Below are positions 5,485 to 22,090 of a DNA stretch of 34,518 nt, piece by piece (position 1 is the stretch's first letter; each line of letters begins with the position of its first letter). Under the pieces are notes generated by a model. The model made no database searches and was not told the origin of the DNA. It saw only the letters and a program-made list of their open reading frames with translations. The stretch lies in the NCBI GenBank assembly GCA_016795345.1, contig JAEUHO010000347.1:1-34518 (forward strand), written 5' to 3'. Made by a program: the position numbers and the translations under genes. Origin of the DNA: Planctomycetia bacterium (GTDB lineage Bacteria > Planctomycetota > PLA2 > JAEUHO01).

Positions 5485-8418
5485 TCAGCGCGGCACGTGC
5501 ACCTTCACCACGTCCTCGGGCTTGCCTTCGCCGTGGCACACGTCGCACGCCTCCTGACCGTTCGGAGCGGTCTGCGTGTCGATGTGCGCGTGCGCGGCCG
5601 TCGAGTCGTGGCAGGAGCCGCAGACGAAGCCCCAGACGCGGGCCGGGACGGACCCGACCGCCGGGTGCGTGCGGTTCTGCGGGGCGTGCCAGGCGTCGTT
5701 GCCGTGGCAGCGATCGCACTGGCGGACGGCGCCCGGCCAGGCCGGGAAGACCACCGCGTCGTACTTGTTCCGGCTCGGCGGGGTGCCGTTGCCGAGGACC
5801 TCGTACGTCGCGCCGTTGGTCAGCTCCTCGCCCATGTGGATCTTGTGCAGCATCTCGCGGAAGCCGATCGAGACGCCGACCGTGTCCACGTAGTTCGCCG
5901 TGTTGGTCTTGAACCGGCCCGCGTCCTCGGCGGTGGAGTCGCCGTGGCACATGATGCAGGTCTTGAAGCCGCGGCGGCCGCCGCCGTGGAACCACATGTC
6001 GTTGTGGCAGGTGTAGCAGTTCGACTGGTCGGAGATGACCTCGTACGGCGCCAGCGTGGAGGCGTTGCCGACGAGGAAGTCGACCGCGCCCGCGTCCGAC
6101 GTGGACGGGTACGACTGGGTCTCGCCGTAGAGCACCACGGGGTTGTTCACGCGGGCGTAGCAGTCGAGCGTGTACGTGCCGTCCACGATCGCCTTGTTCT
6201 TCCACTCGCCGGACGACTCGCCGATGTCCGGCGTGTCGTTGAGGGGCGCGGGGAACTCGGTGGGCATCACGAAGTCGGCCCAGTAGGTCGCGATCGCGAT
6301 CTGGCCGGCGACGAACTGGTCGCTCGACTCGGCGATGTTGCCGCCGGACACGGCCCAGTTGCCCGAGGCCGAGACGGACGTCAGCGTGATCTCCTGGATC
6401 GTGGCGCCGGCCGCGTGGGCGAACCGGAGCTGCTGCTTGATCCACAGGCGGTTGCCCTCGCCGACCGCCACCTGGGCGTACTCCTCGGTGGGCAGGCCGT
6501 CGTCGATCACGACGTAGTCCGGGTTCGCGAAGTTCGCGATGCTCGCGACGTCGAAGTAGTTCTGGCGCTTCTGCGCCGCGACCGTCGCCGTCGTGCTGCC
6601 CGGCGTGCCGCCCGCCGCGGACCGGCGGTACAGCGTCGTCAGGTTCGTGGCGAGCGCGCCGCGCGCGGTGTTGAACGTGTCGAGGCCGACGGTGCCGACG
6701 CCGACCTTCTCGAGCAGGATCTGCTCGGGCACCAGCATCGTGTACACGCCGCCGACCGGCGACGCCCACGCGGGGTGCGCGCTGGCCGGGTTCGAGTTCA
6801 TCGGGACGCCCGAGTTGACGACCAGGTTGTAGTTGCTGGTCGGGCCCGCGATGATCATCGTGAAGCTGCCGGCGGAGGCGCCCGACGGAGGCGTGTGGAA
6901 CGCCGTCAGCGGGACGTCGAGCCCCGCGTTCGGGCCGTTCGTGTACTGGATGCGGAACTTGACCTGGATCTTCTCGCCCGGGTCCACGGTGTTGTCGGAG
7001 TTGTGGGTGCCGGCTTCCTTCACCTCGGACACGTTGACCGCGATCTCCGGGGCCTGCGCCGGGTTCAGGATCGGGTGCCGGTGCGCGTCCTCGACGGACA
7101 GCGGGGTGCCGCTCGCGTCGTGGCAGCCGGACAGCGCGCACGTCTCGTTGCCCTTGTTGGCGCCCATGGTCTGCAGGTTCGCCGTGTAGGGCTTCGTCCA
7201 GTCCACGTCGTCGTGGCAGGAGCCGCACGAGTGGCGGGCGGGCTGCGACTTCCACAGGTTGCCCTGGGCCGGCGCGGTCTCGGGGCCCGTGCCGTCCGGG
7301 TCGCCGTGGCACTTCTCGCAGGAGACGACGCCCGTGCGGACGAGGTTCTCCTTGCCCTGGTTCGTGGACGAGAGGGCGGCGTAGCCCGCGTCACGCGGCA
7401 TCTGGATGTTGAACGCCGGGAAGACCGGGAAGGCGGCCTCGGAGAGGTCGATGATCGAGTTGTTGAAGCCGACGTACTGCAGCGGGATGCTCGCGCCGTA
7501 GACGCGGGCGCCGGCGTTGTCGGTCGTCAGGCCGTTCACCGACGGGAGGTGCTTGCCGTTGTGGATCTTGTGGATCATCACGCGGAAGTCGACCGAGACG
7601 CCCGGCGTGCCGCCGGCGAATGAGGCGTTGTTGCGGTCCTCGGCGCCCGACGTGTGGCAGAGCAGGCAGAGGTCGACGTCGACGCGCGAGCCGCCGTGGG
7701 CGCGGACCGTCGTGTGGCAGACGTTGCAGTTGGCGTCGGCGACCACCGCGCGCGGGGTGACCGTCGTCGCGCCGCCGTACAGGAAGTTGTGGGTCGCGGC
7801 CCCGGCGTCGCGGAAGTTCGTGTTGTCGAACTCGTAGTTCGCGACCAGCTGCAGGCCGATCGTGTAGGTGCCGTCGAGCAGCGCCTGGCCGGTCAGCTCG
7901 CCGTCGATCGCGCCGAAGGACGTCGTGTCGTTGAGGGGCGCGGCATAGACCGACGGGAACGCGGGCAGGTAGTAGCCCCACTCGCCGCCGCCGAGGTAGA
8001 ACGCGTTCGCGACGACGTTCGTCTGCGGGACGATGACGCGGTTGTAGTTGTTCGTCGGGCCGGACACGTAGATCTGGCCGTTCGTCATGTTCGGGACGTA
8101 GAGGTCGGTCCCGTCGTTCGCCTTCGCGGTGAACTTCACCCCGATGACGTCGCCCGGGAGGATGTTCCCGTTGGCGCCGGTGCCGCCGACGATCCCCGTG
8201 ATCACGAGGTTGCAACCCGGCAGGCGGTCGTACTCGCCGACGGTCAGGACGGTCTCCGCCGGCAGCGGCTGGGCCGGGGGCAGCGTGCCGCCGCCACCAC
8301 CACCTCCGCCTCCGCCACCACCACCACCGCCACCACCGCCGCAAGCCGTGAAGCCGCCCGCCATGGCGATCGCTGTCAGGATCGCGAGGGTCGAGCGGCG
8401 CATCGTGGACATCGTCAT
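5485..8418 (-). CDS. OmcA/MtrC-family decaheme c-type cytochrome lipoprotein (paralog 1)
   Basis: 977 aa. Family members sit on the outer face of the outer membrane and pass electrons to extracellular acceptors. The signal peptide MTMSTMRRSTLAILTAIAMAGG leads to lipobox FTAC (Cys26), then 18 glycines. The layout matches the family: beta domain (about 50-225), five hemes (about 231-405), a second beta domain (about 430-750), five hemes (about 755-962). Nine sites are CXXCH. The fifth is CX4CH (CALSGCH). The hallmarks VSVDFRVMIHKIHNGKHLPS and IGFREMLHKIHMGEEL are present. No CX8C disulfide pair, as in Shewanella MtrC, is seen. ATG 8418 has AGGAGG just upstream; the frame is open further up but has no such support. 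It is the distal member of a tandem pair with its own leader and terminators. The in vivo acceptor is unknown. Confidence 0.93.
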   Translation of the reverse strand: MTMSTMRRSTLAILTAIAMAGGFTACGGGGGGGGGGGGGGGGGGTLPPAQPLPAETVLTVGEYDRLPGCNLVITGIVGGTGANGNILPGDVIGVKFTAKANDGTDLYVPNMTNGQIYVSGPTNNYNRVIVPQTNVVANAFYLGGGEWGYYLPAFPSVYAAPLNDTTSFGAIDGELTGQALLDGTYTIGLQLVANYEFDNTNFRDAGAATHNFLYGGATTVTPRAVVADANCNVCHTTVRAHGGSRVDVDLCLLCHTSGAEDRNNASFAGGTPGVSVDFRVMIHKIHNGKHLPSVNGLTTDNAGARVYGASIPLQYVGFNNSIIDLSEAAFPVFPAFNIQMPRDAGYAALSSTNQGKENLVRTGVVSCEKCHGDPDGTGPETAPAQGNLWKSQPARHSCGSCHDDVDWTKPYTANLQTMGANKGNETCALSGCHDASGTPLSVEDAHRHPILNPAQAPEIAVNVSEVKEAGTHNSDNTVDPGEKIQVKFRIQYTNGPNAGLDVPLTAFHTPPSGASAGSFTMIIAGPTSNYNLVVNSGVPMNSNPASAHPAWASPVGGVYTMLVPEQILLEKVGVGTVGLDTFNTARGALATNLTTLYRRSAAGGTPGSTTATVAAQKRQNYFDVASIANFANPDYVVIDDGLPTEEYAQVAVGEGNRLWIKQQLRFAHAAGATIQEITLTSVSASGNWAVSGGNIAESSDQFVAGQIAIATYWADFVMPTEFPAPLNDTPDIGESSGEWKNKAIVDGTYTLDCYARVNNPVVLYGETQSYPSTSDAGAVDFLVGNASTLAPYEVISDQSNCYTCHNDMWFHGGGRRGFKTCIMCHGDSTAEDAGRFKTNTANYVDTVGVSIGFREMLHKIHMGEELTNGATYEVLGNGTPPSRNKYDAVVFPAWPGAVRQCDRCHGNDAWHAPQNRTHPAVGSVPARVWGFVCGSCHDSTAAHAHIDTQTAPNGQEACDVCHGEGKPEDVVKVHVPR

Positions 8419-8924: not shown

Positions 8925-11900
8925 TCACCGCGGAACGTGGAACTTCACGACGTCCTCGGCCTTCCCCGGCCCGTGACACGTCGCGCAGGACTCGACACCC
9001 GTCACGGTGGCGTTGGTGTCGAGGTGGGCCGTGGCCGCGTCCGAGTCGTGGCACGAACCACAGCTGGCACGCCACGTCCGGACCGACACCGAGGCCGACG
9101 GGTGGACCCGCGCGGCCGGCTGCTGCCACGACGCACTCGTGCCGTGGCAGGAGGCGCAGTCACTCACGCCCCCGGTCGTCAGCGGGAACCCGACCTCGTC
9201 GTACTTCGCGGGGTAGGGGACGCCGAGGAAGACGCCGATCGCGACGTACTCGTGCCCCTTCGAGAGCTCCATCCCCATGTGGATCTTGTGGAGCAGCGTC
9301 CGGAAGTCCATCGTGACGCCCTGCGTCGGAGGGATGAACCCCGGCGAGTAGCTGTTGAATGTGTACCGCGGGCCGTCCTCGAGCCCGGAGACAGCGTGAC
9401 AGCTCAGGCACGTCGCCAGGCCGCGGCGCCCGTTCCCGTGGAACGTGAGGTCACCGTGGCATCGATCGCAGGCGGCGGCGTCCGCGATGATCGCGCGGGT
9501 CGTCAGGGTCGTCGCGGTGCCGTAGAGGAACTGGATCGTCGCCGGCGGCGAGATCATCCGGTACGACGTCGACTCGTTGGCCGGCGCACCGAGGGTCGCG
9601 ACGGTGAAGTCCCGGTTGACCCAGAACCCGATCGAGTAGGTCCCGTCGAGGAGCGGCAGGCCGATCCAGTCGCCCCAGAACTGGTCCAGCGCGTCGGAGT
9701 CCGCGACCGGCGCCGGATACACCGCCTGGAGCGTGTCGCCGGGGAAGCGCCGGAACCCGAACCGGAGGTCCGTCCGGTACGAGACGACGATCGGGTTGCC
9801 GGTCGTGCCCGCGAGCACGGTCAGCTGACCCGTCGCCGGGTCCGTGACGGTGTACGACACGCCCTCGCGCATCGTCGTCAGCGTGACCTCTTGCAGTTGC
9901 GCGCCCACCGCGTGGGCGAACCGCAGGGGCGTCGTGAACCAGAACCGGTCGTTGACGCCGAGGTCGAGCCCGGTCACGTCGTCCGTCGTCTGGATCCGAC
10001 CGACCTGGGCGTACTCCTCGACGCCGAGGCCCGAGTCGATCACGACCCGGTCACCGACCGCGACGCCGGCCAGCGCCGCGGCGTCGGCGACGACATAGCG
10101 GCCGTACAGGGTCGAAGCCACGGCGATCGGGGCCCCGGCCTGCGTCGCCGTGCGCTCGAACACCGTCTGCCGCCCCCAGTAGAGCGGAAGGCTGGAGACG
10201 TTCACCGTCGCCGGGAGCGAGGCGGCGACCGTGCCGACGCGTTCGAAGCTGATGTCCGTCGGGATCGGCATCGTGTAGGACGGCGCCGTCGGGTACACCT
10301 CGAGATAGAAGCGGTCGCCCGCGGCGAAGTCGGTGCCCGTGTCGTTCACCCGGAGCGACACGCCGAGCGCCGTCACGTCGAGGAAGCCGCCGGACGGGAC
10401 GACCTGCCCGGTGAGCGGCGTGGCGAACGTGTTGGCCGCCCGATCGTAGGTGACGACGTCGAACGTGTTCACGCCCGTGAAGACCACCGCGTAGACCCGC
10501 CGCAGCGCGGTCGCGCTGATCACGACGTTCGTGACGGTGCCCGCGCCGGTGAAGGCGGGCGACTTCCGGAACGAGAGCGTGTCGAACAGGGTCGCGTTGG
10601 CCGCCAACATCTGGGGGTTCTCGGTGGGCCCCGTCACGATCGCCTGCCCACGGACCGTCGAGTGGAGGGAGACGTCCGCCAGCGCGTCGTTCCTCACCGT
10701 GAACGTCGCCGTGATGTTGTCGCCCGCCTGGTGACGACCGGACGGACCCGTGCCGCCGCCGACGGCGCTCGCGTCGAGGTTGATGCCCGTGTTCAGGGCC
10801 GGGTTCAGGTATGGGTGCAGGTGCGCGTCCCGCACGGACAGCGGCGTCCCCGACGGCGTGTGACAGCCGGACAGCGCGCAGGTGTCGTTCGTCTTCCCCG
10901 CGCCCATCAGCTGCCCGTTCGCCTGGTACGGCTTCGTCCAGTCGAGGTCGTCGTGGCACGACCCGCACGCGGCGCGCGACGGCCGCGTCTCGACGTTCGC
11001 GGCCTGCGCCGCGCCGTCGTGACAGCTCCCGCACGCGACCACGCCCGCGCGCATCTGGTCCTCGAGGTGCTTCTGCGCCGCGGCGAGGCCGGTGTAGCCC
11101 AGGTCCTTCGGCATGGGCCCGTTGCCGCCGTAGCCGGTGTATGTCGTGCCCGTGACGTCGAAGAGGTACGCGACGTACGCGCTCGGCATCACCGGGTACC
11201 CGACCTCGGAGACGTCGATGACGTGATCCTGGAACCCGACGTACTGCAGGGGCTTCGGCGCCGTCGCGTAGTTCCGCGTCCCGTCCACGTTCGTGCCGAC
11301 GCCGAGCACCGACGGAAGGTGCTTGGCGTTGTGGACCTGGTGGATCATCGCCTTGAAGTCGACCGAGACCCCCGGCGTGCCGCCGGCGGTCGCGTTGTTG
11401 CGGTCCTCGGCCCCGGCGGTGTGACAGAGCAGGCAGAGCCGGACGCCGACGCGGACCCCGCCGTGCGCGCGCACCTCGGTGTGGCACTTCGCGCACGCGT
11501 CATCCGTCACGACCTCGCGTACGTCGAGCGGGCCGGCGGCGCCGACCCGGAAGTCGAACACGCTCGAGCCGGCGTCACGGAAGGACGTTTCGCCCACCTC
11601 GATCGTGCGGAAGAGCTCGATGCCGACCGAGTACGTGCCCGCCACGATCGGCTGGCCCGTGCGCTCGCCGTCGTCCACGCCGAACGACGGCGAGTCGTTC
11701 ACCGGCGCGGCGAACGTGGACGGGAAGGGCGACGGGAAGGCATAGACCCAGGTGGCGTCGCCGGCGTAGTACGCCGACGTGAGGAAGTCGAACTGCGGGA
11801 CGACGACGCGCTGGTAGTCGTCCGTCGGGCCGGAGACGAAGATCGAGCCGTAGTCGAAGTCCGCGAGGGCCAGCGGCGCGCCGGCATCGTCGCGCAGCTC

Positions 11901-12179
11901 GAACGCGACCCAGAGCACGTCACCGGCGAGCACCGTGCCGGAAGTGCCGGAGCCGCCGTTGACGGCGACGACCTCGACCTTCACGCCCGGCAGCGGATCC
12001 GTCGGTCCGACGACGACGACCGGCGACGTCGGAGCCGGCTGGGCGGGCGGGAGCCCCCCCCCGCCACCGCCGCCGCCTCCACCTCCGCCTCCGCCCCCAC
12101 CGCCGCCGCAGCCGGCGAGGATGGCGACCGCGAGAAGCGCGGAGATCGAGAGACAGGTGTGCTGCATGCGTGAGCCCAT
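8925..12179 (-). CDS. OmcA/MtrC-family decaheme c-type cytochrome lipoprotein (paralog 2)
   Basis: 1084 aa, about 107 longer than its tandem neighbour, with most extra length in the second beta domain. Signal peptide with a clean lipobox LAGC (Cys24), followed by 18 glycines and LPPAQPAPTSP. Ten hemes in two groups of five: nine CXXCH plus a fifth site CX4CH (CALSGCH) at the same place as in paralog 1. It shares VSVDFKAMIHQVHNAKHLPS, MDFRTLLHKIHMGMEL and the same end, CATCHGPGKAEDVVKFHVPR. These features mark the outer-surface decaheme family that reduces extracellular metals, quinones or other cells. ATG 12179 is preceded by GGAGG. The pair probably arose by duplication but is well diverged, so the two may prefer different partners or acceptors. 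Confidence 0.93.
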   Translation of the reverse strand: MGSRMQHTCLSISALLAVAILAGCGGGGGGGGGGGGGGGGGGLPPAQPAPTSPVVVVGPTDPLPGVKVEVVAVNGGSGTSGTVLAGDVLWVAFELRDDAGAPLALADFDYGSIFVSGPTDDYQRVVVPQFDFLTSAYYAGDATWVYAFPSPFPSTFAAPVNDSPSFGVDDGERTGQPIVAGTYSVGIELFRTIEVGETSFRDAGSSVFDFRVGAAGPLDVREVVTDDACAKCHTEVRAHGGVRVGVRLCLLCHTAGAEDRNNATAGGTPGVSVDFKAMIHQVHNAKHLPSVLGVGTNVDGTRNYATAPKPLQYVGFQDHVIDVSEVGYPVMPSAYVAYLFDVTGTTYTGYGGNGPMPKDLGYTGLAAAQKHLEDQMRAGVVACGSCHDGAAQAANVETRPSRAACGSCHDDLDWTKPYQANGQLMGAGKTNDTCALSGCHTPSGTPLSVRDAHLHPYLNPALNTGINLDASAVGGGTGPSGRHQAGDNITATFTVRNDALADVSLHSTVRGQAIVTGPTENPQMLAANATLFDTLSFRKSPAFTGAGTVTNVVISATALRRVYAVVFTGVNTFDVVTYDRAANTFATPLTGQVVPSGGFLDVTALGVSLRVNDTGTDFAAGDRFYLEVYPTAPSYTMPIPTDISFERVGTVAASLPATVNVSSLPLYWGRQTVFERTATQAGAPIAVASTLYGRYVVADAAALAGVAVGDRVVIDSGLGVEEYAQVGRIQTTDDVTGLDLGVNDRFWFTTPLRFAHAVGAQLQEVTLTTMREGVSYTVTDPATGQLTVLAGTTGNPIVVSYRTDLRFGFRRFPGDTLQAVYPAPVADSDALDQFWGDWIGLPLLDGTYSIGFWVNRDFTVATLGAPANESTSYRMISPPATIQFLYGTATTLTTRAIIADAAACDRCHGDLTFHGNGRRGLATCLSCHAVSGLEDGPRYTFNSYSPGFIPPTQGVTMDFRTLLHKIHMGMELSKGHEYVAIGVFLGVPYPAKYDEVGFPLTTGGVSDCASCHGTSASWQQPAARVHPSASVSVRTWRASCGSCHDSDAATAHLDTNATVTGVESCATCHGPGKAEDVVKFHVPR

Positions 12180-12600: not shown

Positions 12601-13857
12601 TCAGCGGTGGCAGTGCTGGCACTCGCTCCCGTTGTCGATGTGCGGGACCGGCGGCGCGCCGCCGGGGCCGGGGCCCGCCGGCAGGTGGCACGTCCGGCAG
12701 TTCATGCCGGGGACGTGCCAGGCGGGCTGGTCGGTCGCCGTCTCGTGCTGCGGCTCCTCGAAGTGGCACACGCGGCAGCCCTGCTCGCGCGAGATCGGGA
12801 AGTGGCACTCGCCGCAGTGCGTCGAGGGGTTCGCCGTCCAGCGGCCGCGGTGGGACAGCGGGGCGGTCTCCTCGTGGCACCGGACGCAGTAGTCCGTCTG
12901 GTGGCAGACCGCGCAGCTCTTCCGGTCCATGGCCGCCATCACGCCGTGGGTCTTGAGCCGCCACATCGTGTCGTGGCTGCGCGGCATCTCCTCGCGGTGG
13001 CAGCGGTCGCAGAAGATCTGGTCGTCGTGGCACATGTCGCAGCGCGCCTCGGCCTTCGCGCGGTCGTTCGCGGCGATGGAGCCGTGGCGCTCCTTCCACA
13101 GGTGCTTGTGCGACGCCGGCGGCGTCTTGGCGTGGCAGTCCGTGCAGAAGGCCTGGTCGGCGTGGCAGAGGTCGCAGTGCTGCTCAGCGCGGTCCTGCGC
13201 CGTGGCCGCGAGCTTGCCGTGGTCCGCGCGCCAGTTGGTGAGGTGCGACGCGGGGGCGACCTCCGCCCGGAGGTCGCGGTGGCAGGTCTGGCAGTCGTTC
13301 TTCCCGCCCTTCTGCTGGTGGCACTGCATGCACGCGGCCATCGTGAACCGGACGCCGACGAAGCGCTCCGCGCCCTTCATCTCGCCGTGGCACGGGAAAC
13401 ACGACGCCGAGTCGGTCGCGTGCTTCGCGTGCGAGAACTTCACGTCGCCGCCGTAGGAGGCGATCGCCTTCGTCCACTTGGGGGCCCCGTCCGCCGTGAA
13501 GAACGAGTTCTTCACCTTCTCGGCGTCCGGCTTCTTCTCGTCCTCCTCGTCGTGGCACTCGGCGCAGGTCGCCTCGTACGTCATCTTGCGCGGCTCGAAG
13601 GGCTCGCCCTCCTTCCGCTCCTTCATGTGGCAGTCGGCGCACTCGAGGCCCTTGTCCATGTGGGCCGGGTGCGGCATCCGGGGCCCGGGGGCCGCCGCGA
13701 ACGTGCCGGGCACGACCCGCGCCGCGCCCGCGGGCGGGGCGCTGACGAGGTTCGACGTGAGCGACGGGAGGGGGATCCTCCCGCGCGCACAGGAGAGCAG
13801 CACGATCCCGGCGACCACCGGGACCGCCCAACGCAGGGTCTTCTTGGCGGGGCCCAT
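12601..13857 (-). CDS. 15-heme c-type cytochrome lipoprotein
   Basis: 418 aa from ATG 13857 (GGAG about 8 nt upstream). Lysine-rich n-region, hydrophobic stretch and lipobox LLSC (Cys23) predict a lipoprotein. Fifteen CXXCH sites run from CADCH (73-77) to CQHCH at the very C-terminus, with no other recognisable domain. The spacing is short and regular, often as pairs (CDLCH..CTDCH, CDMCH..CDRCH, CAVCH..CVRCH, CGECH..CRVCH), which suggests an extended heme wire. Frequent extra His residues (SHKHLW, SHLTNW, SHDTMW) could be distal ligands for bis-His hemes. It starts 11 bp after the beta-barrel gene, so barrel and cytochrome are made together and probably form one complex at the outer membrane, analogous to MtrA with MtrB. 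No close named homolog is recognised. Confidence 0.88.
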   Translation of the reverse strand: MGPAKKTLRWAVPVVAGIVLLSCARGRIPLPSLTSNLVSAPPAGAARVVPGTFAAAPGPRMPHPAHMDKGLECADCHMKERKEGEPFEPRKMTYEATCAECHDEEDEKKPDAEKVKNSFFTADGAPKWTKAIASYGGDVKFSHAKHATDSASCFPCHGEMKGAERFVGVRFTMAACMQCHQQKGGKNDCQTCHRDLRAEVAPASHLTNWRADHGKLAATAQDRAEQHCDLCHADQAFCTDCHAKTPPASHKHLWKERHGSIAANDRAKAEARCDMCHDDQIFCDRCHREEMPRSHDTMWRLKTHGVMAAMDRKSCAVCHQTDYCVRCHEETAPLSHRGRWTANPSTHCGECHFPISREQGCRVCHFEEPQHETATDQPAWHVPGMNCRTCHLPAGPGPGGAPPVPHIDNGSECQHCHR

Positions 13858-13868
13858 GGGGTCTCCGA

Positions 13869-15485
13869 TCAGAACTCGAACCGGGCGCCGGCCTGGACGG
13901 TGACGAAGGTGTCCACGTCGTCGTCCTCGAGGCGCACGGACAGGTCGAACTTCCAGCGCCCCCACGGGGCGTAGGTGGCCTTCACGTACCCGTTCCACGA
14001 GTCGAAGCGCTCGCTGGCGGTGTACAGGTCGGTCCGGTAGAGCGAGTAGTCGATGCCGCCGACGAGCTTGAACACGTCGCTCGGCTGGTACCGGGCCTCG
14101 AAGGCGCCGGCGAACGTGTCCTCGTCGTCCGACACCCAGTAGTCGGCGGTCACCGAGAACGACCAGCAGGTGCGCGGCCAGCCCTCGACGGCGAGGGTGG
14201 CGAAGAACCGCCCGAACTCGCGGTTGAAGGCGCCCTCGTCGTCGTCGTCGTAGAGCGCGCGGCCGGTGGCGCCGACCTCGACGGTCGTGCAGTCCGACAG
14301 CGACTTGGCGACGGCGAAGTGCGCGTCCCAGAAGGGCTGCAGCGTCTCCTCGATCGCGTAGTACGGGTCGAGGTCGTAGACGAGGGCGTTCTCCTCCTCG
14401 AGCTGCGTGCGGAACGAGCCGCGGAACGTCGCGTTGAGCCGCGGCGAGAACCCGGTGCCGGACAGGCCGAGCTCGCGGGGGTCGTCGTCCACCTGCTGGT
14501 ACCACAGCCGCGCGTTCGTCCACTCGCTGATGCGCTGGCGCAGCTCGGCGGTGATCAGGTTGTTCGTCGGCCGGCCGTAGAACTCGTTCTCGTCCTCGAC
14601 GTAGACCCAGTCGAGGCCGAAGTCGCCGCCGCGCCAGGGCCGCAGCGCGATCCCGGCGCCGCCGATGAAGTCGCCCTCGGGCGAGGCCTCGTAGATGTGG
14701 GCCGGGACGCCGGCGAACGCCGACGCCTGGAACTCGGCGCACCCGGCGGGCGCGGTGCGGACGTGCACGCCGTCCACGAGGAACGGGTACCCGCCGTCCA
14801 CGTCCTGCCGGCCGACGCGCACGCGCTCGAGGAAGCCGCCCGCGAACCGGTAGCTCGCGTACAGGTGGTAGAGCCGCCCCGTGACCGCGGAGTCGAACGT
14901 GTCGTCGACGCCGTCGAAGACGTAGAAGCCGCTGTTGTCCTGGTCGCCGTCGAGGTCCTCGGCGAGCCGGCCGTAGAACGAGCCGGACCACCCGAGGTCG
15001 CTGTCCTTGCGGTAGGTGACCGTCCCGTACTCGTACAGGTCGTTGTCGCTCTCGCCGTCGCCGCTGCGGGAGCGGAACCGGATCGCGATCGAGCCGTGGA
15101 AGCAGCACGGCTCCGTCCACGGCCGGACCGCGACCGGCGCGTCGGCCGGGAGCACGCCCGCGACGGCCGACTTCTCGGCCGCCGTCGGCGCCGGCGGCGG
15201 CGTCGGCTTCGGGACGTCGGCCGGCAGCACCTCCGGCTTCGGCGCGTCGGCGGGCTTGGCCTCCGCGGGGGGCGGCGGCTCCGTGGCCGGCGCAGGCGAC
15301 TCGGCGCCCGACACCCCGGCCGCCGGCGCCGCGGGAGCGGACGGCGGCGCCGGCGGTTCGGCAGCGGGCGCTGCCGGAGCGGCCGGCGGAGGCGGCGCGT
15401 CCTCGGCGCGGGCGGTCCCGGCGCCGGACACGAGCACGACGGCCCCGAGGACCGCCGCGCACCAACGACGTGTTGTCGAACCCAT
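13869..15485 (-). CDS. Outer-membrane beta-barrel protein, putative porin partner of the 15-heme cytochrome
   Basis: 538 aa. Signal peptide MGSTTRRWCAAVLGAVVLVSGAGTARA, probably cleaved before EDAPPPP. Then about 100 residues of Pro/Ala-rich linker (to about 130), then about 400 residues of alternating amphipathic strands (SIAIRFRSRS, WSGSFYGRLAED, HLYASYRFAGG, FDLSVRLED). The last residues, VTVQAGARFEF, carry the terminal Phe recognised by the BAM machinery. The closely linked 15-heme gene points to a porin-cytochrome conduit. The barrel domain is much smaller than MtrB (about 26 strands), so 16-20 strands are more likely here; this is an estimate. GGAGGG lies about 13 nt before ATG 15485; a GTG one codon earlier is an alternative. 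Homology to MtrB/PioB could not be established by eye. Confidence 0.8.
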   Translation of the reverse strand: MGSTTRRWCAAVLGAVVLVSGAGTARAEDAPPPPAAPAAPAAEPPAPPSAPAAPAAGVSGAESPAPATEPPPPAEAKPADAPKPEVLPADVPKPTPPPAPTAAEKSAVAGVLPADAPVAVRPWTEPCCFHGSIAIRFRSRSGDGESDNDLYEYGTVTYRKDSDLGWSGSFYGRLAEDLDGDQDNSGFYVFDGVDDTFDSAVTGRLYHLYASYRFAGGFLERVRVGRQDVDGGYPFLVDGVHVRTAPAGCAEFQASAFAGVPAHIYEASPEGDFIGGAGIALRPWRGGDFGLDWVYVEDENEFYGRPTNNLITAELRQRISEWTNARLWYQQVDDDPRELGLSGTGFSPRLNATFRGSFRTQLEEENALVYDLDPYYAIEETLQPFWDAHFAVAKSLSDCTTVEVGATGRALYDDDDEGAFNREFGRFFATLAVEGWPRTCWSFSVTADYWVSDDEDTFAGAFEARYQPSDVFKLVGGIDYSLYRTDLYTASERFDSWNGYVKATYAPWGRWKFDLSVRLEDDDVDTFVTVQAGARFEF

Positions 15486-15507
15486 CACGAGCCGAACCCT
15501 CCCTCCC

Positions 15508-15695: not shown

Positions 15696-16337
15696 CTAGT
15701 GCTGGCCCTTCAGCGGGACGTGATCGTGGATCTTGTCCTTCGCGTCCTTGGCCTTCTCGAAGTCGAAGGCGTAGTCCTTCGGCATCGTGGGGCACTCCTT
15801 GACGTGGCAGGGCATGCACGTCTCGGCCTTCGGGATCACGGCGCCGAGCTTCTCGATCTCCGCGCGCTTGAAGTCGGGGTGATCCTTCTTGTACGGGCCG
15901 TACAGGCTGCCCGGGCCGTGGCAGGCCTCGCACGTCACGCCCTGGTTGAGCTTCATGCGCTCTTCCTCGGCGGGCGTGCAGGCGGCGCCGGCGGCGGGCG
16001 GGGCCGGGTACCCGGACTCGGTGCCGTAGCCCGTGGTGTGGCACTTCAGGCACTTCGGGTCCTTCGTGTAGTCGGCCTTGGGGTCGAGGCCGCCCGCCGT
16101 CTTCTTCTCGGCGGCGACGTCGGGCTTCAGGCTCTCGAACGTCTTGGCCATGCCCGTCTTCTTCCACGACGAGTGCTGCTTGAAGTGGCACTTCTTGCAG
16201 GCGTCGGCACCGACGTAAGCAGGCTTGGGGTCGTCGGCCTGGGCCGTCGGGCGGGTCGAGAGCAGACCGCCGACGAGCCCGGCCGTCGCGATCACGCTCG
16301 CGACGAGCCAGAAGGAGCGCACCGAGGGATGACGCAT
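15696..16337 (-). CDS. Tetraheme cytochrome c554-like protein, periplasmic
   Basis: 213 aa with a signal peptide (1 to about 34, ending TAQA/DD). Four CXXCH sites: CKKCH (47-51), CLKCH (96-100), CEACH (136-140), CMPCH (174-178). The start of the mature protein, YVGADACKKCHFKQHSSWKKTGMAKTFE, is the family signature of cytochrome c554 (Nitrosomonas-type, also tetraheme and of similar length). The family carries electrons in the periplasm and some members reduce nitrogen oxides. Here, between a quinol-oxidising membrane cytochrome and an outer-membrane conduit, a shuttle role is likely. Two further cysteines (120, 182) are not in heme motifs. ATG 16337 has GGAG just upstream. It probably has its own promoter and terminator. 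Confidence 0.88.
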   Translation of the reverse strand: MRHPSVRSFWLVASVIATAGLVGGLLSTRPTAQADDPKPAYVGADACKKCHFKQHSSWKKTGMAKTFESLKPDVAAEKKTAGGLDPKADYTKDPKCLKCHTTGYGTESGYPAPPAAGAACTPAEEERMKLNQGVTCEACHGPGSLYGPYKKDHPDFKRAEIEKLGAVIPKAETCMPCHVKECPTMPKDYAFDFEKAKDAKDKIHDHVPLKGQH

Positions 16338-16528: not shown

Positions 16529-18676
16529 TCAGGTGACGAGGCCGTAGATCATGAGCGCGAGGAGCGCGAGCGCGATCGAGAGCATCGTGCCGCCGACCAC
16601 GTAGGCGCGTCGGACGAGGCCCGCGTCCGGGGCGGGCAGGGCCTCGCGGTCGAGGCGCCCGTCGGCCTTCATCCGCTCGTACTCGGCGGGCCGCTCGAGC
16701 CTCAGCTCCTCCTCGGGGATGCGGCCCGTGAAGATGATCGGGTCGAGCGGGAACTTCCCGGGCCGCAGGTTGGCGTGGAAGAAGTGCACGCTGAAGATGA
16801 AGCCCGTCGCGAGGAGGGCCTCGTAGCTGTGGAGGATGTGGGCGAGGTTGACCGCCCAGCCCGGCAGCACGGCGGTGGACGCGATCGGGAACCACATGAT
16901 CAGGCCGGTGATGCCGATGAAGCCGACGCCCCACACCTCGGCCCAGAAGTCGAACTTCTCCCAGTAGGTCCACCGGTCGAAGTGCGGCCGCTGGCCGCCC
17001 TTGAAGAACCAGCGGAAGTTCGCGCGCACGTCCTGGACGTCCTTCCACCGCGGCAGCATCGTGTGCGGGCCCTTGAAGAGGCCCTTCTCGCCGCGCAGCA
17101 TGCGGCGGGCGATGTGCACGAGGTAGACGGCGAAGTACGCGAACGTGACCACGCCGCCGAGGCGGTGCAGGAACCGGACCGAGGCCGGCCCGCCGAGCAG
17201 CCCGTACAACGTGTGCCCCCACGCGGTGTCGTGGAACCGCAGCGGCATGCCCGTCAGCGCCAGCAGCAGGAACGTCGACGCCACCGTCATGTGGAGGATG
17301 CGGTAGAAGGGCGGCCACCGCTGGTACCACCGGCCGCCGAGGTGGCTGTGGTGGGGCATGGGCTCGCGGATCGCGCGGAAGAACCAGAGCAGGATGTGCA
17401 GGCCCGCGAGGCACCACACGACGACGATCAGGGTCGTCATGATCGTGCGGGCCCAGTAGAGGACGGGCCACTTCTCCTTGTCGTCGGGGTTCGCGTGCAC
17501 GGCATAGGTCGCGAACGCGTCCGTCGCGCCCGGGTGGCACGTCGCGCACGTCTTCGTGCGCGGCCCCGGGTGGTGCACCGACGACCTCGGGTCGGACGTC
17601 GGGAGGATGTCGTGGGCCGTGTGGCAGTCGGTGCACGACGCCACGCCGCCGCCGCCGAGGTCGGAGACGCGGCCGTGGTAGGTGTTGCGGTACGAGCCGA
17701 GCTTCGACTCGTGGCACTCGCCGCAGGTGTCCATCACCTGGCGCTTGAAGTCGGCCTCGGTGAGCGGGTCGCGGACGTGGTGAGGCTTGTGGCAGGTCGT
17801 GCAGGTCGCGGGCTCCTTGCCCACGGCGTTCTTGTCGGTCGCGTGCCGGGCCGTCGTCCCGTGCACGCTCCGCTGGTACTGCGCGAGGACGCCGGCGTGG
17901 CACTTCCCGCACGTCGCGCTGACGTTGTCGGGGTGCACCGGCGAGGCGGCGTCCTTGACGCCCACCACCTTGTGGCCGCCGTGGCACGTGACGCAGGTCG
18001 CGGTGACCACCAGGCCCGACTTCAGCAGGCCCCGGCTGTGCGTGTCGTCGGTGTACCGCTCGGCCATCAGCTTCGCGACCTCGGCGTCGCCGCGGGCGTC
18101 GGGCGCGAAGTGGCACGAACCGCACGTGAGCGGCACGTTGAGCGGGTACAGGCGCGAGGCCGGGTCCGTCGACTTGCGGATGTCGTGCGCGGGGCCGTGG
18201 CACGCGACGCACGAGGGCGCGCGGCGCTCGGCGGGCGGGGGCTTCTCGCCCTCGGGCGGCAGCTCGGCGGCCTTCTTGTGCGACGACTCGAGGACCTGGG
18301 CGGCCTCCTTGTCGTGGCACTCCGCGCAGCCGACGGTCTTCGCCTCCTTCGAGTGCGGCGCGGTCTCGAAGTCGAAATGGCACTCGGTGCAGTCCTTCTT
18401 GCCGTGCACCGACGCCGCGTGGGCCTTCGGGTCGACGAGGTGCTTCCCGGCCTTCGCGGGGTCGGCGTGGCACGCGAGGCAGCCGTCGTTCGGCGACGGC
18501 TTCGCCGGCGCGGCCGGCGGCGCGTCGTCGTCGCCGGCGCGCGCGAGGGCGCCGCGCACCGACGCGGCGACGATTGCGACGAGGAACACGAGCAGCCCCG
18601 CGCCCCACGCCCGCCGCGCGCGCCCGCCCCGTCCCGTCGCGCCCCCCGCCGCCGACCCGGTCACGCGTCCGCCCAT
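16529..18676 (-). CDS. Undecaheme c-type / cytochrome b membrane fusion, CbcL-like quinol oxidoreductase
   Basis: 715 aa from ATG 18676 (GGGAGG about 8 nt upstream). An N-terminal membrane anchor (about 25-45) is followed by a periplasmic domain with 11 CXXCH sites (66-381). The membrane domain has helices near 411-433, 457-479, 504-525, 581-600, 611-633 and 689-713. Conserved His in RILHMTV, RFLHRLGG, YLVHIARR and NLAHILHSYEA could ligate b-hemes. WTYWEKFDFWAEVWG is typical of formate dehydrogenase gamma / hydrogenase cytochrome b proteins. Fusion of a multiheme c domain to such a diheme b domain is the plan of Geobacter CbcL (nine c-hemes), which takes electrons from menaquinol for metal reduction. 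By analogy it would move electrons from the quinol pool to periplasmic cytochromes. It could instead serve a hydrogenase- or formate-like donor, but no such genes are nearby. Confidence 0.85.
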   Translation of the reverse strand: MGGRVTGSAAGGATGRGGRARRAWGAGLLVFLVAIVAASVRGALARAGDDDAPPAAPAKPSPNDGCLACHADPAKAGKHLVDPKAHAASVHGKKDCTECHFDFETAPHSKEAKTVGCAECHDKEAAQVLESSHKKAAELPPEGEKPPPAERRAPSCVACHGPAHDIRKSTDPASRLYPLNVPLTCGSCHFAPDARGDAEVAKLMAERYTDDTHSRGLLKSGLVVTATCVTCHGGHKVVGVKDAASPVHPDNVSATCGKCHAGVLAQYQRSVHGTTARHATDKNAVGKEPATCTTCHKPHHVRDPLTEADFKRQVMDTCGECHESKLGSYRNTYHGRVSDLGGGGVASCTDCHTAHDILPTSDPRSSVHHPGPRTKTCATCHPGATDAFATYAVHANPDDKEKWPVLYWARTIMTTLIVVVWCLAGLHILLWFFRAIREPMPHHSHLGGRWYQRWPPFYRILHMTVASTFLLLALTGMPLRFHDTAWGHTLYGLLGGPASVRFLHRLGGVVTFAYFAVYLVHIARRMLRGEKGLFKGPHTMLPRWKDVQDVRANFRWFFKGGQRPHFDRWTYWEKFDFWAEVWGVGFIGITGLIMWFPIASTAVLPGWAVNLAHILHSYEALLATGFIFSVHFFHANLRPGKFPLDPIIFTGRIPEEELRLERPAEYERMKADGRLDREALPAPDAGLVRRAYVVGGTMLSIALALLALMIYGLVT

Positions 18677-18860: not shown

Positions 18861-20867
18861 TCAGGACGTCGTGGAGGCCGAAGCCCCGCTTCCACGACGG
18901 AAGAGGTACGAGAAGCCCGCCGCGAGGACGAGCGCCTCGACCACGTAGAAGATCGTGAGCGTCGTGATCACGCCCTGCGTGAAACCGTACGCGTGGAGTC
19001 CGATGCCGAGGTGATTCACGTGCCACCACGAGAAGGCGACGATCGTGCCCTGCGCGATCGTGGCCATCGCGATGCCGAAGGTCTTCAGGTAGCCGCCGAG
19101 CCGCCCGTGCAGGATCGCGAGCTGCGCGAGGCAGATCATGAGGGCGCCGTTCTCCTTGGGGTCCCAGCCCCAGAAGCGGCCCCACGAGTCGTTGGCCCAG
19201 ATGCCGCCGAGGATGGTCCCGACGACGCTGAAGAGGAGGCCGAACGCGAGCATCCCGTACGTCATCTTCCCGGCCGACCGGTAGAACGCCTCGTCGCCGG
19301 CCCGCAGGCCGAACGTGCGCCCGAGGACCGTCACGTGCGCCAGGGCTGCGGCGACGAGGCCGCCCGTGTACCCGATGGCGATGCACGTCACGTGCAGCGT
19401 GAGCCAGTAGTTCGTGTCGAGCACGGCCACCAGCTGCGGCATGGTGTCCTCGCCCTTCAGCGACTCGTAGCTGTTCGCGAGCATGAGGCCCAGCGCCCCG
19501 AGGACGGGGGCGAGCGTCAGCGCGATCCCGCGCCGGTCGAACAGCTCGGCCACCGCGCACGCGGCGACGCCGAGGGCCGAGATGAAGAGCACCGTCTCGT
19601 ACAGCGTGCTGATGGGCGGGCGCTCGCGCAGGATGCAGCGCATCCAGATGCCGGCGACCTGCAGCACCAGCGCGGCGAGCAGCACGGTCCACGCGGCGCC
19701 CCGGACCCAGCGGTTGCGCACAAGCCACCCCGCCGCGACCAGGAGGAACGCGAGGATGTAGAGCCCCGCGCCGCGGTGGAACGGGTCGAGGCGGTTGAGC
19801 GACACCTCGAGGGGGATCTTCTCGTACTCGCCGCGCGTGCGGGTCATGCGCTCGGCCGTCGCCGCGACGTCGCGCAGGTGCGCGACGAACGCCGCGCGGT
19901 CGCCGACCGACCCGCCCATGCCCGCCAGGCCGAGCATCAGGGCCTGGATCTCGGGCGGCAGCGTGATGCCCTCGGTGACCGCCTGCAGCGCCTCGCCCGG
20001 CGTGAACCACGTCTCCTGCTCCGAGACGGGCCCGGGCGGCGGGATCATCGCCACGGCGTTCGAGGCCTCGGCCAGCTCGCGCAGGCGCGCGAGGAGGCTC
20101 GCGACGCCGGGGTCCGACGCGACGGGGCCGGCGCCGCCGCCGTGGGGGTCGCCGCGCGGGAGCACCCGCGACAGCGACGGCGCGCGCGCCAGCACGTCGG
20201 CCACGCGCACGCGCTCCTTGCCGTCGAACACCGCCTTGAGCGCGGGCGACGCCGACACGTCGAGCTCGGCGCGGCCGAAGTCGACGAGGTGCGAGAGCCG
20301 CTCGAACGTCGTCGTGCCGCGGTAGAGGTCGACGACGCCGTGCTGGACGGGCGTCAGCCCCTTCGCGTCCTTCTTCATGTAGACGAGCGCCAGCTCGCGC
20401 AGCTTGGCGGCCGCGGGCCGGAGCGCGGCGTACGAGTACAGGTCGCGCTTCTTCTTGCCCTCGTGGGCGAGGCCCACCGCGTCGAGCACCTCGTCGTTCT
20501 CGACGAGGAAACACGGGTGCGTCTCGGCGACCGACGGCCGGAACACCACGTCGAGCAGCCACGCCGTCGGCGTCAGCTTCTCGCCCGCGGCGTCCTTGGC
20601 CGAGCGCTTGTGGGCGATGCCGAGCAGCGTGTACGTCGCGAACGTGTCGAGCGGCTTCACGCGGCCGCCGTCCTGCACGGGCAGGCGCGCCGCGAGGTCG
20701 AGGACCTCGTCGCTCCACGGCCCGGCGCCGGCGCCCGAGGGCGCGGGCGCGGCGGGGCCGTCGGCGGCGGCGCGGCCCGCGAGGAGCGGCGACGCGAGGC
20801 CCGCGACGAGCACGAGGACCAGCGCGGCGACGGTCGCGGGGCGGCGGAGGGCGGGCGGACGGGTCAT
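18861..20867 (-). CDS. ccsA: Cytochrome c biogenesis protein CcsA (ResC), long form
   Basis: 668 aa. System II heme-handling protein: with ResB it delivers heme to the periplasm and attaches it to CXXCH apocytochromes. The C-terminal membrane half has the WWD heme-binding signature (IWANDSWGRFWGWDPKENG, near 560-578) and candidate flanking His residues (TLHVTC near 492, WHVNH near 615). The N-terminal 390 residues are a signal peptide plus a large periplasmic domain beginning LPVQDGGRVKPLDTFATYTL, which makes the protein nearly twice the classic CcsA length. Similar long forms are known in several Gram-negative phyla. It starts inside the resB stop (ATGA overlap), so translation is probably coupled. 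It would serve the roughly 50 heme sites encoded downstream. Confidence 0.92.
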   Translation of the reverse strand: MTRPPALRRPATVAALVLVLVAGLASPLLAGRAAADGPAAPAPSGAGAGPWSDEVLDLAARLPVQDGGRVKPLDTFATYTLLGIAHKRSAKDAAGEKLTPTAWLLDVVFRPSVAETHPCFLVENDEVLDAVGLAHEGKKKRDLYSYAALRPAAAKLRELALVYMKKDAKGLTPVQHGVVDLYRGTTTFERLSHLVDFGRAELDVSASPALKAVFDGKERVRVADVLARAPSLSRVLPRGDPHGGGAGPVASDPGVASLLARLRELAEASNAVAMIPPPGPVSEQETWFTPGEALQAVTEGITLPPEIQALMLGLAGMGGSVGDRAAFVAHLRDVAATAERMTRTRGEYEKIPLEVSLNRLDPFHRGAGLYILAFLLVAAGWLVRNRWVRGAAWTVLLAALVLQVAGIWMRCILRERPPISTLYETVLFISALGVAACAVAELFDRRGIALTLAPVLGALGLMLANSYESLKGEDTMPQLVAVLDTNYWLTLHVTCIAIGYTGGLVAAALAHVTVLGRTFGLRAGDEAFYRSAGKMTYGMLAFGLLFSVVGTILGGIWANDSWGRFWGWDPKENGALMICLAQLAILHGRLGGYLKTFGIAMATIAQGTIVAFSWWHVNHLGIGLHAYGFTQGVITTLTIFYVVEALVLAAGFSYLFRRGSGASASTTS

Positions 20868-22090
20868 GCGGCGCTCCCGGCGGCGGCGCGACGACGCGAC
20901 TCGCGCGCGATGTAGCGGACGAACTTGAACACCACGAAGTGGACGAAGAGCCCGAGCGCGATCACGTAGCAGGCGTACTTGGGCACCTGGTCGCTCGGGT
21001 TGCGCACGACGGAGAAGGTCGAGAACAGCGGCGTGCCGGGCGCGGCGCCCTCGGGCCCCCAGCCGGACTGGTACAGCGTGTACCCGTGGTGGCGCAGGGG
21101 CGCGTTCATCGTGATGTGCGACGCGGCGTCCACGCCGTCCTCGGTGCGGGTGACGTACGACGAGAACCGGCGGGCCATCCCGATGCCCGGGTGGTCCTCC
21201 TTCACGAACCGGTCGAGCGTCACGCGGAACGGCAGGGTCCAGCGCACCTTGCGGAGCTCGACCTCGAAGCGGCGGCCGTCCTCCTCGTGCACCCACGGGA
21301 GGCCGTGCGCGCCCCACAGCAGCGTGCGCGCGCGGACGGACCCGCCGCCCTTCCCGGCGAGCCCGACGAGCGCCCCGGGCAGGTTGCGCTCGGCCTCCTT
21401 CTCGGGCTTGCGGGGGTCGAAGCGCCAGCCGTCCACCGCGTCGGCGCCGCCGGCGCGCGAGGGCTCGACGTTGCGGTGCCAGCGGCTCACGACGACGTCG
21501 AACGGGAGCCGCGCCGACGCGAAGCGCGCCGTGTCCTCGGGCTCGAGGTCCATCAGCCGGCGCGCCGGGAGCACGAACTCCGTGGCGGCCCCGCCGTCCT
21601 TGCGCTCGCGGACGACGATCTCCCAGTCGTGGTAGCTCGCGAACTCGTCCGACGACTGGCCCTCCATGAGGGTCATCTGCCCCTTGTCGGAGAGCAGCCA
21701 CTCGACGTAGCTGCCGGCGAGCAGCAGGAGGATGCCGAGGTGCGCCACGAGGATGCCCGCGGTCTCGTACCGCTTGCGCATCCGCACGACGCCGCCCACC
21801 ACCAGGTTGACCGCGAGGAGCGTGAGCACGGGCGTCGCGCCCGGCAACGGGATCGAGAGGAACCCGATGTCGTGGATCACGAACCACGACTCGAAGTACT
21901 TCACCTGCACGTCGAGGAGGCTCATGTGCGCCTGCTCGAGCGTCCCGAAGAACGTCAGCACGAGCAGCACGAGCAGCAGGGTGATCGCCAGGGCGTAGGA
22001 GCCCAGCGCGGCCACGACGCGTCGCGCGACGAGGGAGAGGGTGCCGGCGGCGGAGGTCGCCGGGGCGGCGGGGAGCGGGCCGTCACTCAC
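20864..22090 (-). CDS. resB: Cytochrome c biogenesis protein ResB (Ccs1)
   Basis: 408 aa. Partner of CcsA in system II. Three N-terminal membrane helices (about 30-49, 80-103, 109-130; the third contains AHLGILLLLAG with a conserved-type His), a large periplasmic beta-rich domain (about 135-370) and a final helix (about 374-395). Segments typical of the family include FFGTLEQ, MNAPLRHHGYTLYQSGW and FSVVRNPSDQ. It starts at GTG 22090, eight bases inside the end of the preceding lipoprotein gene, and its stop overlaps the ccsA start by four bases, so the three genes form a tight operon. Role: holding or presenting apocytochrome and heme during ligation. Confidence 0.93.
   Translation of the reverse strand: MSDGPLPAAPATSAAGTLSLVARRVVAALGSYALAITLLLVLLVLTFFGTLEQAHMSLLDVQVKYFESWFVIHDIGFLSIPLPGATPVLTLLAVNLVVGGVVRMRKRYETAGILVAHLGILLLLAGSYVEWLLSDKGQMTLMEGQSSDEFASYHDWEIVVRERKDGGAATEFVLPARRLMDLEPEDTARFASARLPFDVVVSRWHRNVEPSRAGGADAVDGWRFDPRKPEKEAERNLPGALVGLAGKGGGSVRARTLLWGAHGLPWVHEEDGRRFEVELRKVRWTLPFRVTLDRFVKEDHPGIGMARRFSSYVTRTEDGVDAASHITMNAPLRHHGYTLYQSGWGPEGAAPGTPLFSTFSVVRNPSDQVPKYACYVIALGLFVHFVVFKFVRYIARESRRRAAAGSAA

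Follow-up and report, generated by a model that had tools for sequence, protein, structure and literature searches.

A conduit-like pair of outer-membrane barrel and multiheme lipoprotein genes, of an unusual Pcc form, conserved in Planctomycetota

The minus strand of the window, a stretch of 34,518 nucleotides (74% GC) that is the whole of one contig (G000:C242) of a 4.9-Mb assembly, encodes an outer-membrane beta-barrel followed by a lipoprotein with 15 heme motifs. The pair is real, conserved and conduit-like, and it is an unusual form of the Pcc kind and not a separate kind. We think it probable that the two proteins make up a trans-outer-membrane electron conduit of this kind, belonging to the same lineage as the Kuenenia two-gene cluster. 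Close relatives of the window in the genome collection are Planctomycetota MAGs. A sequence-only reading of the window had treated the two genes as an operon; they do adjoin, and the cluster around them turns out to be larger than the pair (Table 1).

Table 1. Genes of the window around the barrel, listed in order of transcription.
Feature	Coordinates	Strand	Remarks
Cytochrome c maturation, ResB-like	20864..22090	minus	named by sequence reading, no family search; adjoins the cluster in L026 and L028 too
Cytochrome c maturation, CcsA-like	18861..20867	minus	named by sequence reading, no family search; adjoins the cluster in L026 and L028 too
Membrane protein, 11 CXXCH and cytochrome b561/formate-dehydrogenase-gamma-like domain, presumed quinone-linked entry or exit	16529..18676	minus	PF14522, PF01292
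Tetraheme cytochrome, c554-like, presumed periplasmic carrier	15696..16337	minus	PF13435 E 4.9e-18
Outer-membrane beta-barrel, Pcc-type porin of planctomycete/Kuenenia kind	13869..15485	minus	signal peptide, Pro/Ala linker, predicted 22 strands
15-CXXCH lipoprotein, presumed wire	12601..13857	minus	lipobox; head of five hemes like ActA, then a ladder with ten hemes
OmcA/MtrC-family surface lipoprotein, 9 CXXCH + 1 CX4CH	8925..12179	minus	TIGR03507 218.2 bits (cut-off 209.3); PF22113
Second OmcA/MtrC-family surface lipoprotein, 9 CXXCH + 1 CX4CH	5485..8412	minus	TIGR03507 225.1 bits (cut-off 209.3)

The barrel protein has 538 residues, reading from an ATG at 15485, with an in-frame GTG at 15488, down to 13869. 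Its signal peptide is followed by a Pro/Ala-rich linker of about 95 residues and then by about 410 residues, the last being Phe. The sequence-only reading had this layout and its coordinates right, at about 400 residues after a long linker, but judged the barrel too small. AlphaFold2 prediction, a step which that reading had proposed, gives for an input of seven sequences a model with mean pLDDT 77.8, pTM 0.69 and 22 strands, where only strands of at least 10 residues are counted and two strands of three residues are left out. Predicted strand numbers given in PMC4245776 are 18-22 for Pcc porins of the Geobacter and Kuenenia kind versus 28 for MtrB, MtoB and PioB, and the MtrAB structure has a 26-strand barrel (PMC7198977). 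Because its 22 predicted strands fall within the Pcc range and short of the 26 of MtrB, we set the barrel apart from Mtr and place it with Pcc; its size is anomalous only against MtrB. Computed as ideal barrels, 22 strands give a width at the backbone of about 40 Å versus 47 Å for 26, so a wire as thick as MtrA, which folds to about 80 x 30 x 35 Å (PMC7198977), would be a tight fit.

Among the VIA-align matches listed, the nearest solved folds to the model are TonB-dependent receptors (Fiu, with Z 19.1 and rmsd 5.0 for 348 residues) together with the FimD usher (Z 18.4). As these pass other cargo, the resemblance lends some weight to a reading in which the lipoprotein sits on the periplasmic or the outer face, the barrel serves only to receive or tether it, or else to export a different partner, and electrons cross elsewhere. 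A predicted barrel narrower than MtrB, and a lipid anchor unusual for a protein in the MtrA position, speak for it as well, and we weigh it below against the distribution of the pair. Searching the PDB by sequence gives no significant match for the single barrel or for its profile, and some barrel relatives have weak matches to Porin_4 and OMP_b-brl. With sides of the strands assigned by hydrophobicity, the 45 best conserved barrel residues, an arbitrary cut, divide into 23 facing the lumen, 9 facing lipid and 13 in loops (Fisher p 0.008); over all positions the difference is weak, with a mean entropy of 2.19 for the lumen side versus 2.42 for the lipid side (p 0.083). Taken together, the conservation of the lumen side is suggestive only.

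The view of the earlier reading that the barrel is not of MtrB type holds up, as neither PF11854 nor TIGR03509 matches the window barrel with E as high as 1 allowed, and hhalign against six planctomycete MtrB_PioB proteins gives a probability of 13.5%. We rejected membership in MtrB/PioB on these family profiles and hhalign. Of 12 barrel relatives, 2 have a weak match to PF11854 (best 0.0023) and 1 to TIGR03509 (0.0048). Of 392 planctomycete genomes, just 7 have a PF11854 score above its cut-off, and the window's own is not one of them. The absence of 6r2q, the entry with MtrB, from the 50 matches listed by Foldseek and by VIA-align for the barrel model excludes nothing.

Downstream of the barrel, and starting 11 bases past its stop codon with a Shine-Dalgarno-like GGAG of its own, is encoded the presumed wire. 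Its 418 residues contain exactly 15 CXXCH and the lipobox VLLSC at residues 19-23, just as the sequence-only reading had counted hemes and lipobox. Over its first five hemes the lipoprotein matches ActA, the pentaheme protein of alternative complex III, with profile E 1.3e-19 to 6f0k, whose chain A we take to be ActA; chain A of 6btm is named ActA in the search output. ActA itself is not known to have a ladder and is part of an inner-membrane complex. The mean heme spacing drops from 27.4 residues in this head to 22.0 after it. Against TIGR03508, the DmsE/MtrA family, the lipoprotein scores 23.2 bits, below the cut-off of 192.2, and the cytochrome profile matches 6r2q chain A weakly (E 2.9e-5), a chain which is presumably the MtrA of that entry, though labelled otherwise there. 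AlphaFold2 prediction of the cytochrome with six sequences yields a pLDDT of 38.8 and no usable model.

Counting CXXCH only, the 69 complete partner cytochromes have 12 (4 cases), 13 (48), 14 (6), 15 (4), 16 (1), 17 (4) or 19 (2) hemes, so the 13-heme form is commonest and the minimum is 12. Most forms with 15, 17 and 19 hemes have one, two and three units of two hemes inserted immediately behind the head, spaced by about 10 and 35 residues, and the window's protein has one such unit. L106 and L107 carry their extra hemes elsewhere, and L112 has a variant spacing. Our reading of these spacings is that the ladder may grow by two-heme units of about 45 residues just after the head. A regular expression finds a lipobox in 65 of 72 partners, and reading by eye finds a hydrophobic stretch ending in GC in 6 of the other 7, leaving the partner in L085 as the only one without. 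In this the pairs depart from a Pcc with a non-lipidated periplasmic wire. The listings and passages of literature searched contain no description of a lipid anchor or of a wire-length series.

Barrel and cytochrome go strictly together. The 12-row barrel profile A1, searched against 392 Planctomycetota genomes, matches 82 of them, and a cytochrome profile (E <= 1e-30) finds 75 genomes, every one inside those 82; the seven with a barrel only comprise some fragments and some weak barrel matches. Neighborhoods were compared at 73 loci, namely the window, 12 regions and 60 further loci, with L043 dropped as being the same locus as L077; barrel-profile matches outside this set include G161, G221, G173, G193, G381, G048:C138 and fragments. 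In 72 of the 73 the next gene downstream, read in the same direction, is a multiheme one whose first heme is no more than 700 bases from the barrel end, and at the sole exception, L095, the contig ends 2 bases after the barrel. Kept to this degree, the adjacency is more than chance, and the pair is a planctomycete module found phylum-wide. It is also kept in the MAG loci L038-L043, where the cytochrome of L041 runs off its contig. Barrel and cytochrome distances correlate with a Mantel r of 0.913 (n=69, permutation maximum 0.149), a figure with species history left in. Nearest neighbors of the two proteins agree in 36 of 69 cases and disagree for paralogues in G211 and G353. A single-sequence scan of the collected genome contigs found no relatives; a scan with the six-row alignment A3 found six loci, all in Planctomycetota, which is no guide to the range beyond the phylum.

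A generic barrel fold and the weak Porin_4 and OMP_b-brl matches in some members would suit an ordinary substrate porin that happens to stand beside an unrelated respiratory cytochrome. Adjacency and co-occurrence kept across the phylum strongly disfavor such an accident; we give it hardly any credence and rejected it on gene linkage.

Barrel genomes of family f43 number 18, and because 11 of these have HZS_alpha (hydrazine synthase alpha), we take f43 as an anammox family. Most f43 loci have no further gene with at least 3 CXXCH within the stretch examined, L119 excepted, so that with the pair alone or nearly so, one cytochrome must suffice there if the pair is a conduit. G100, a complete f43 genome in one contig of 4.4 Mb, encodes the barrel and then a cytochrome of 338 aa with 14 CXXCH and the lipobox LSGC. 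The two-gene Pcc of Candidatus Kuenenia stuttgartiensis, its genes printed as Kuster_4034 and Kuster_4025, likewise has a porin and one large multiheme cytochrome, and the Anaeromyxobacter and Kuenenia Pcc cytochromes together are given as 338-344 aa with 12 or 14 heme motifs (Shi et al. 2014, PMC4245776), in agreement with G100. As profile A1 matches the 18 f43 genomes and G100 fits these published figures in size and heme number, we conclude that the pair in the window and the Kuenenia Pcc are related, a conclusion in which the step from G100 to Kuenenia is inferred from size, hydrazine synthase and these figures; with G100 so taken, A1 links the barrel by homology to the Kuenenia pair. The sequence-only reading had named a clear profile match to a known conduit porin as what would speak against a new type: MtrB and PioB profiles give none, and profile A1 does find the barrel of this anammox pair fitting the Kuenenia Pcc as described. 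The likeness has limits, in that the Kuenenia cytochrome is described as periplasmic (PMC4245776) whereas the G100 protein has a lipobox, and the window differs further in its 15 hemes, its long Pro/Ala barrel linker and its OmcA/MtrC-type partners.

These two-gene loci also bear on the reading in which the barrel only receives or tethers the lipoprotein. With most anammox-family loci lacking other cytochrome genes nearby, the pairing strictly one-to-one in 72 of 73 loci, and at least 12 hemes in every one of the 69 complete partners, we consider it rather unlikely that electrons cross elsewhere, and continue with the conduit.

Both surface lipoprotein genes downstream in the window reach the TIGR03507 cut-off for OmcA/MtrC decahemes. 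Because the stretches are unequal in length, neighbor counts at the 73 loci are lower bounds: at least 23 have an OmcA/MtrC-like gene in the vicinity (in 21 of them downstream, in the same orientation), at least 34 a c554-like gene and at least 19 a cytochrome-b/multiheme gene. Within the stretch examined, an OmcA/MtrC-like gene was not seen in 50 of the 73. One could read the 15-heme lipoprotein as an outer-surface cytochrome like OmcB, with the tetraheme protein or another cytochrome as the periplasmic or membrane-spanning partner, in keeping with Geobacter, whose conduit lipoproteins are described as surface cytochromes (PMC6148476), and with the c554-like gene in 34 of 73 stretches. But two surface lipoproteins of the OmcA/MtrC family are present in the window anyway, no c554-like gene was seen in the stretches of 39 of the 73 loci, and most anammox-family loci have the pair without surface lipoproteins or c554-like genes, and so we regard this arrangement as improbable. 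Conservation of the pair and its surroundings point instead to a different porin-cytochrome conduit, which the sequence-only reading had offered as one possibility.

Compared with MtrCAB and PioAB, the likeness is that of a barrel, a multiheme wire and a surface cytochrome of the OmcA/MtrC family, and the differences are a barrel outside the MtrB_PioB family with its lower predicted strand number, and a wire that is lipidated, has 15 and not 10 hemes and stays below the TIGR03508 cut-off. The Pcc and Ext conduits of Geobacter (OmbB-OmaB-OmcB, ExtABCD, ExtEFG) share a small porin, a multiheme cytochrome and an often-swapped surface redox lipoprotein, the surface partner being exchanged around a conserved core (PMC4245776, PMC6148476); by their description, the periplasmic cytochrome is separate from the lipoproteins, whereas here the pair's own cytochrome is a lipoprotein. 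He et al. (2017, PMC5566968) proposed PCC3 and PCC4 as novel porin-cytochrome types, with planctomycetes in PCC4 subgroup II. Going by their description, PCC3 differs in porins of up to 42 strands, and PCC4 in combining a porin with three periplasmic cytochromes and a five-helix inner-membrane protein.

In the conduit that we favor, the 15-heme protein would be exported, would mature and would receive its lipid on the N-terminal Cys, an anchor that would keep the ActA-like head at the periplasmic face. The rest of the ladder would insert into and pass through the 22-strand barrel to the surface, there meeting the two OmcA/MtrC-family cytochromes, and on the inner side the quinone pool, the membrane protein with cytochrome b domain and 11 hemes, and the tetraheme protein would exchange electrons. 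The wire would presumably run N-in/C-out, and the order and direction of electron flow given here are presumed as well. MtrAB has the N-terminus of its wire towards the periplasm and the C-terminus towards the surface (PMC7198977), and lipid attachment by the N-terminus, in the inner leaflet, would fit such an orientation.

More tentatively, and at somewhat less than even odds in our judgment, there may be a distinct class of conduits, spread through the planctomycete phylum, with a lipid-anchored wire. Its head would remain on the periplasmic side, and its thin ladder, at about 22 residues per heme versus 27 for the head, would thread a barrel of smaller width than MtrB. Two-heme units inserted after the head would let evolution tune wire length while the surface partner is exchanged. 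The bold part is a lipid-anchored wire of adjustable length in so narrow a barrel. It is a design question whether a heme wire can be sheathed by a smaller barrel, with the MtrAB structure as the comparison case, and a conserved two-gene system in which one kind of barrel goes with wires of between 12 and 19 hemes offers a natural series for relating barrel width and wire length to outer-membrane electron transfer. The 82 of 392 genomes sampled suggest that such transfer may be widespread in Planctomycetota, anammox included, and for anammox bacteria there is a proposal of electrode-dependent ammonium oxidation that involves a porin-cytochrome complex (PMC7188810).

Several minor observations go with these results. 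The presumed surface partner differs between loci, being of OmcA/MtrC type, another cytochrome, a molybdoenzyme, or none. At L043, the genes after the pair encode a lipoprotein with 4 CXXCH, a Tat-signal molybdopterin oxidoreductase and a chaperone-like Nitrate_red_del protein, an arrangement reminiscent of conduits that feed surface enzymes. Partial HZS_alpha matches also occur in G000, G001, G353 and G211, with a full-length match too in G353, and so a partial match is no anammox marker. Candidate barrel-cytochrome fusions in L006, L013, L016, L026, L033 and L036 (853-957 aa, 13 CXXCH) were rejected as products of frames, the cytochrome frame staying open upstream of its start through the GC-rich barrel gene.

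The long Pro/Ala-rich linker of the barrel gene lies N-terminal to the barrel and is pronounced in the window's own family of planctomycete loci (L026 to L029); in several remoter members (L033, L036) it is far shorter. In each of the two OmcA/MtrC-family lipoproteins, the presumed lipobox Cys is immediately followed by a stretch of about 18 Gly, and each has nine CXXCH motifs plus one CX4CH (CALSGCH).

In three relatives (L027, L028, L029) the cytochrome b gene is separated from the c554-like gene by a 7-CXXCH ORF, upstream of the latter, whereas the window has none at that site. At another related locus, L043, the barrel/13-heme pair and a 4-heme lipoprotein are followed directly downstream by a molybdoenzyme of the tetrathionate/DMSO reductase superfamily with a Tat signal, which is possibly an exported reductase coupled to the conduit.

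Elsewhere in the window's genome, partial matches to HZS_alpha (hydrazine synthase) score above cut-off on contigs C40, C57 and C276, for which the hzs-like genes reported in PMC10732223 offer a comparison point.

Coordinates of the genes discussed
Feature	Location	Strand	Detail
Barrel gene	13869-15485	-	linker at residues ~28-125
OmcA/MtrC-family lipoprotein	8925-12179	-	
OmcA/MtrC-family lipoprotein	5485-8412	-	
Molybdoenzyme	L043:3894-7040
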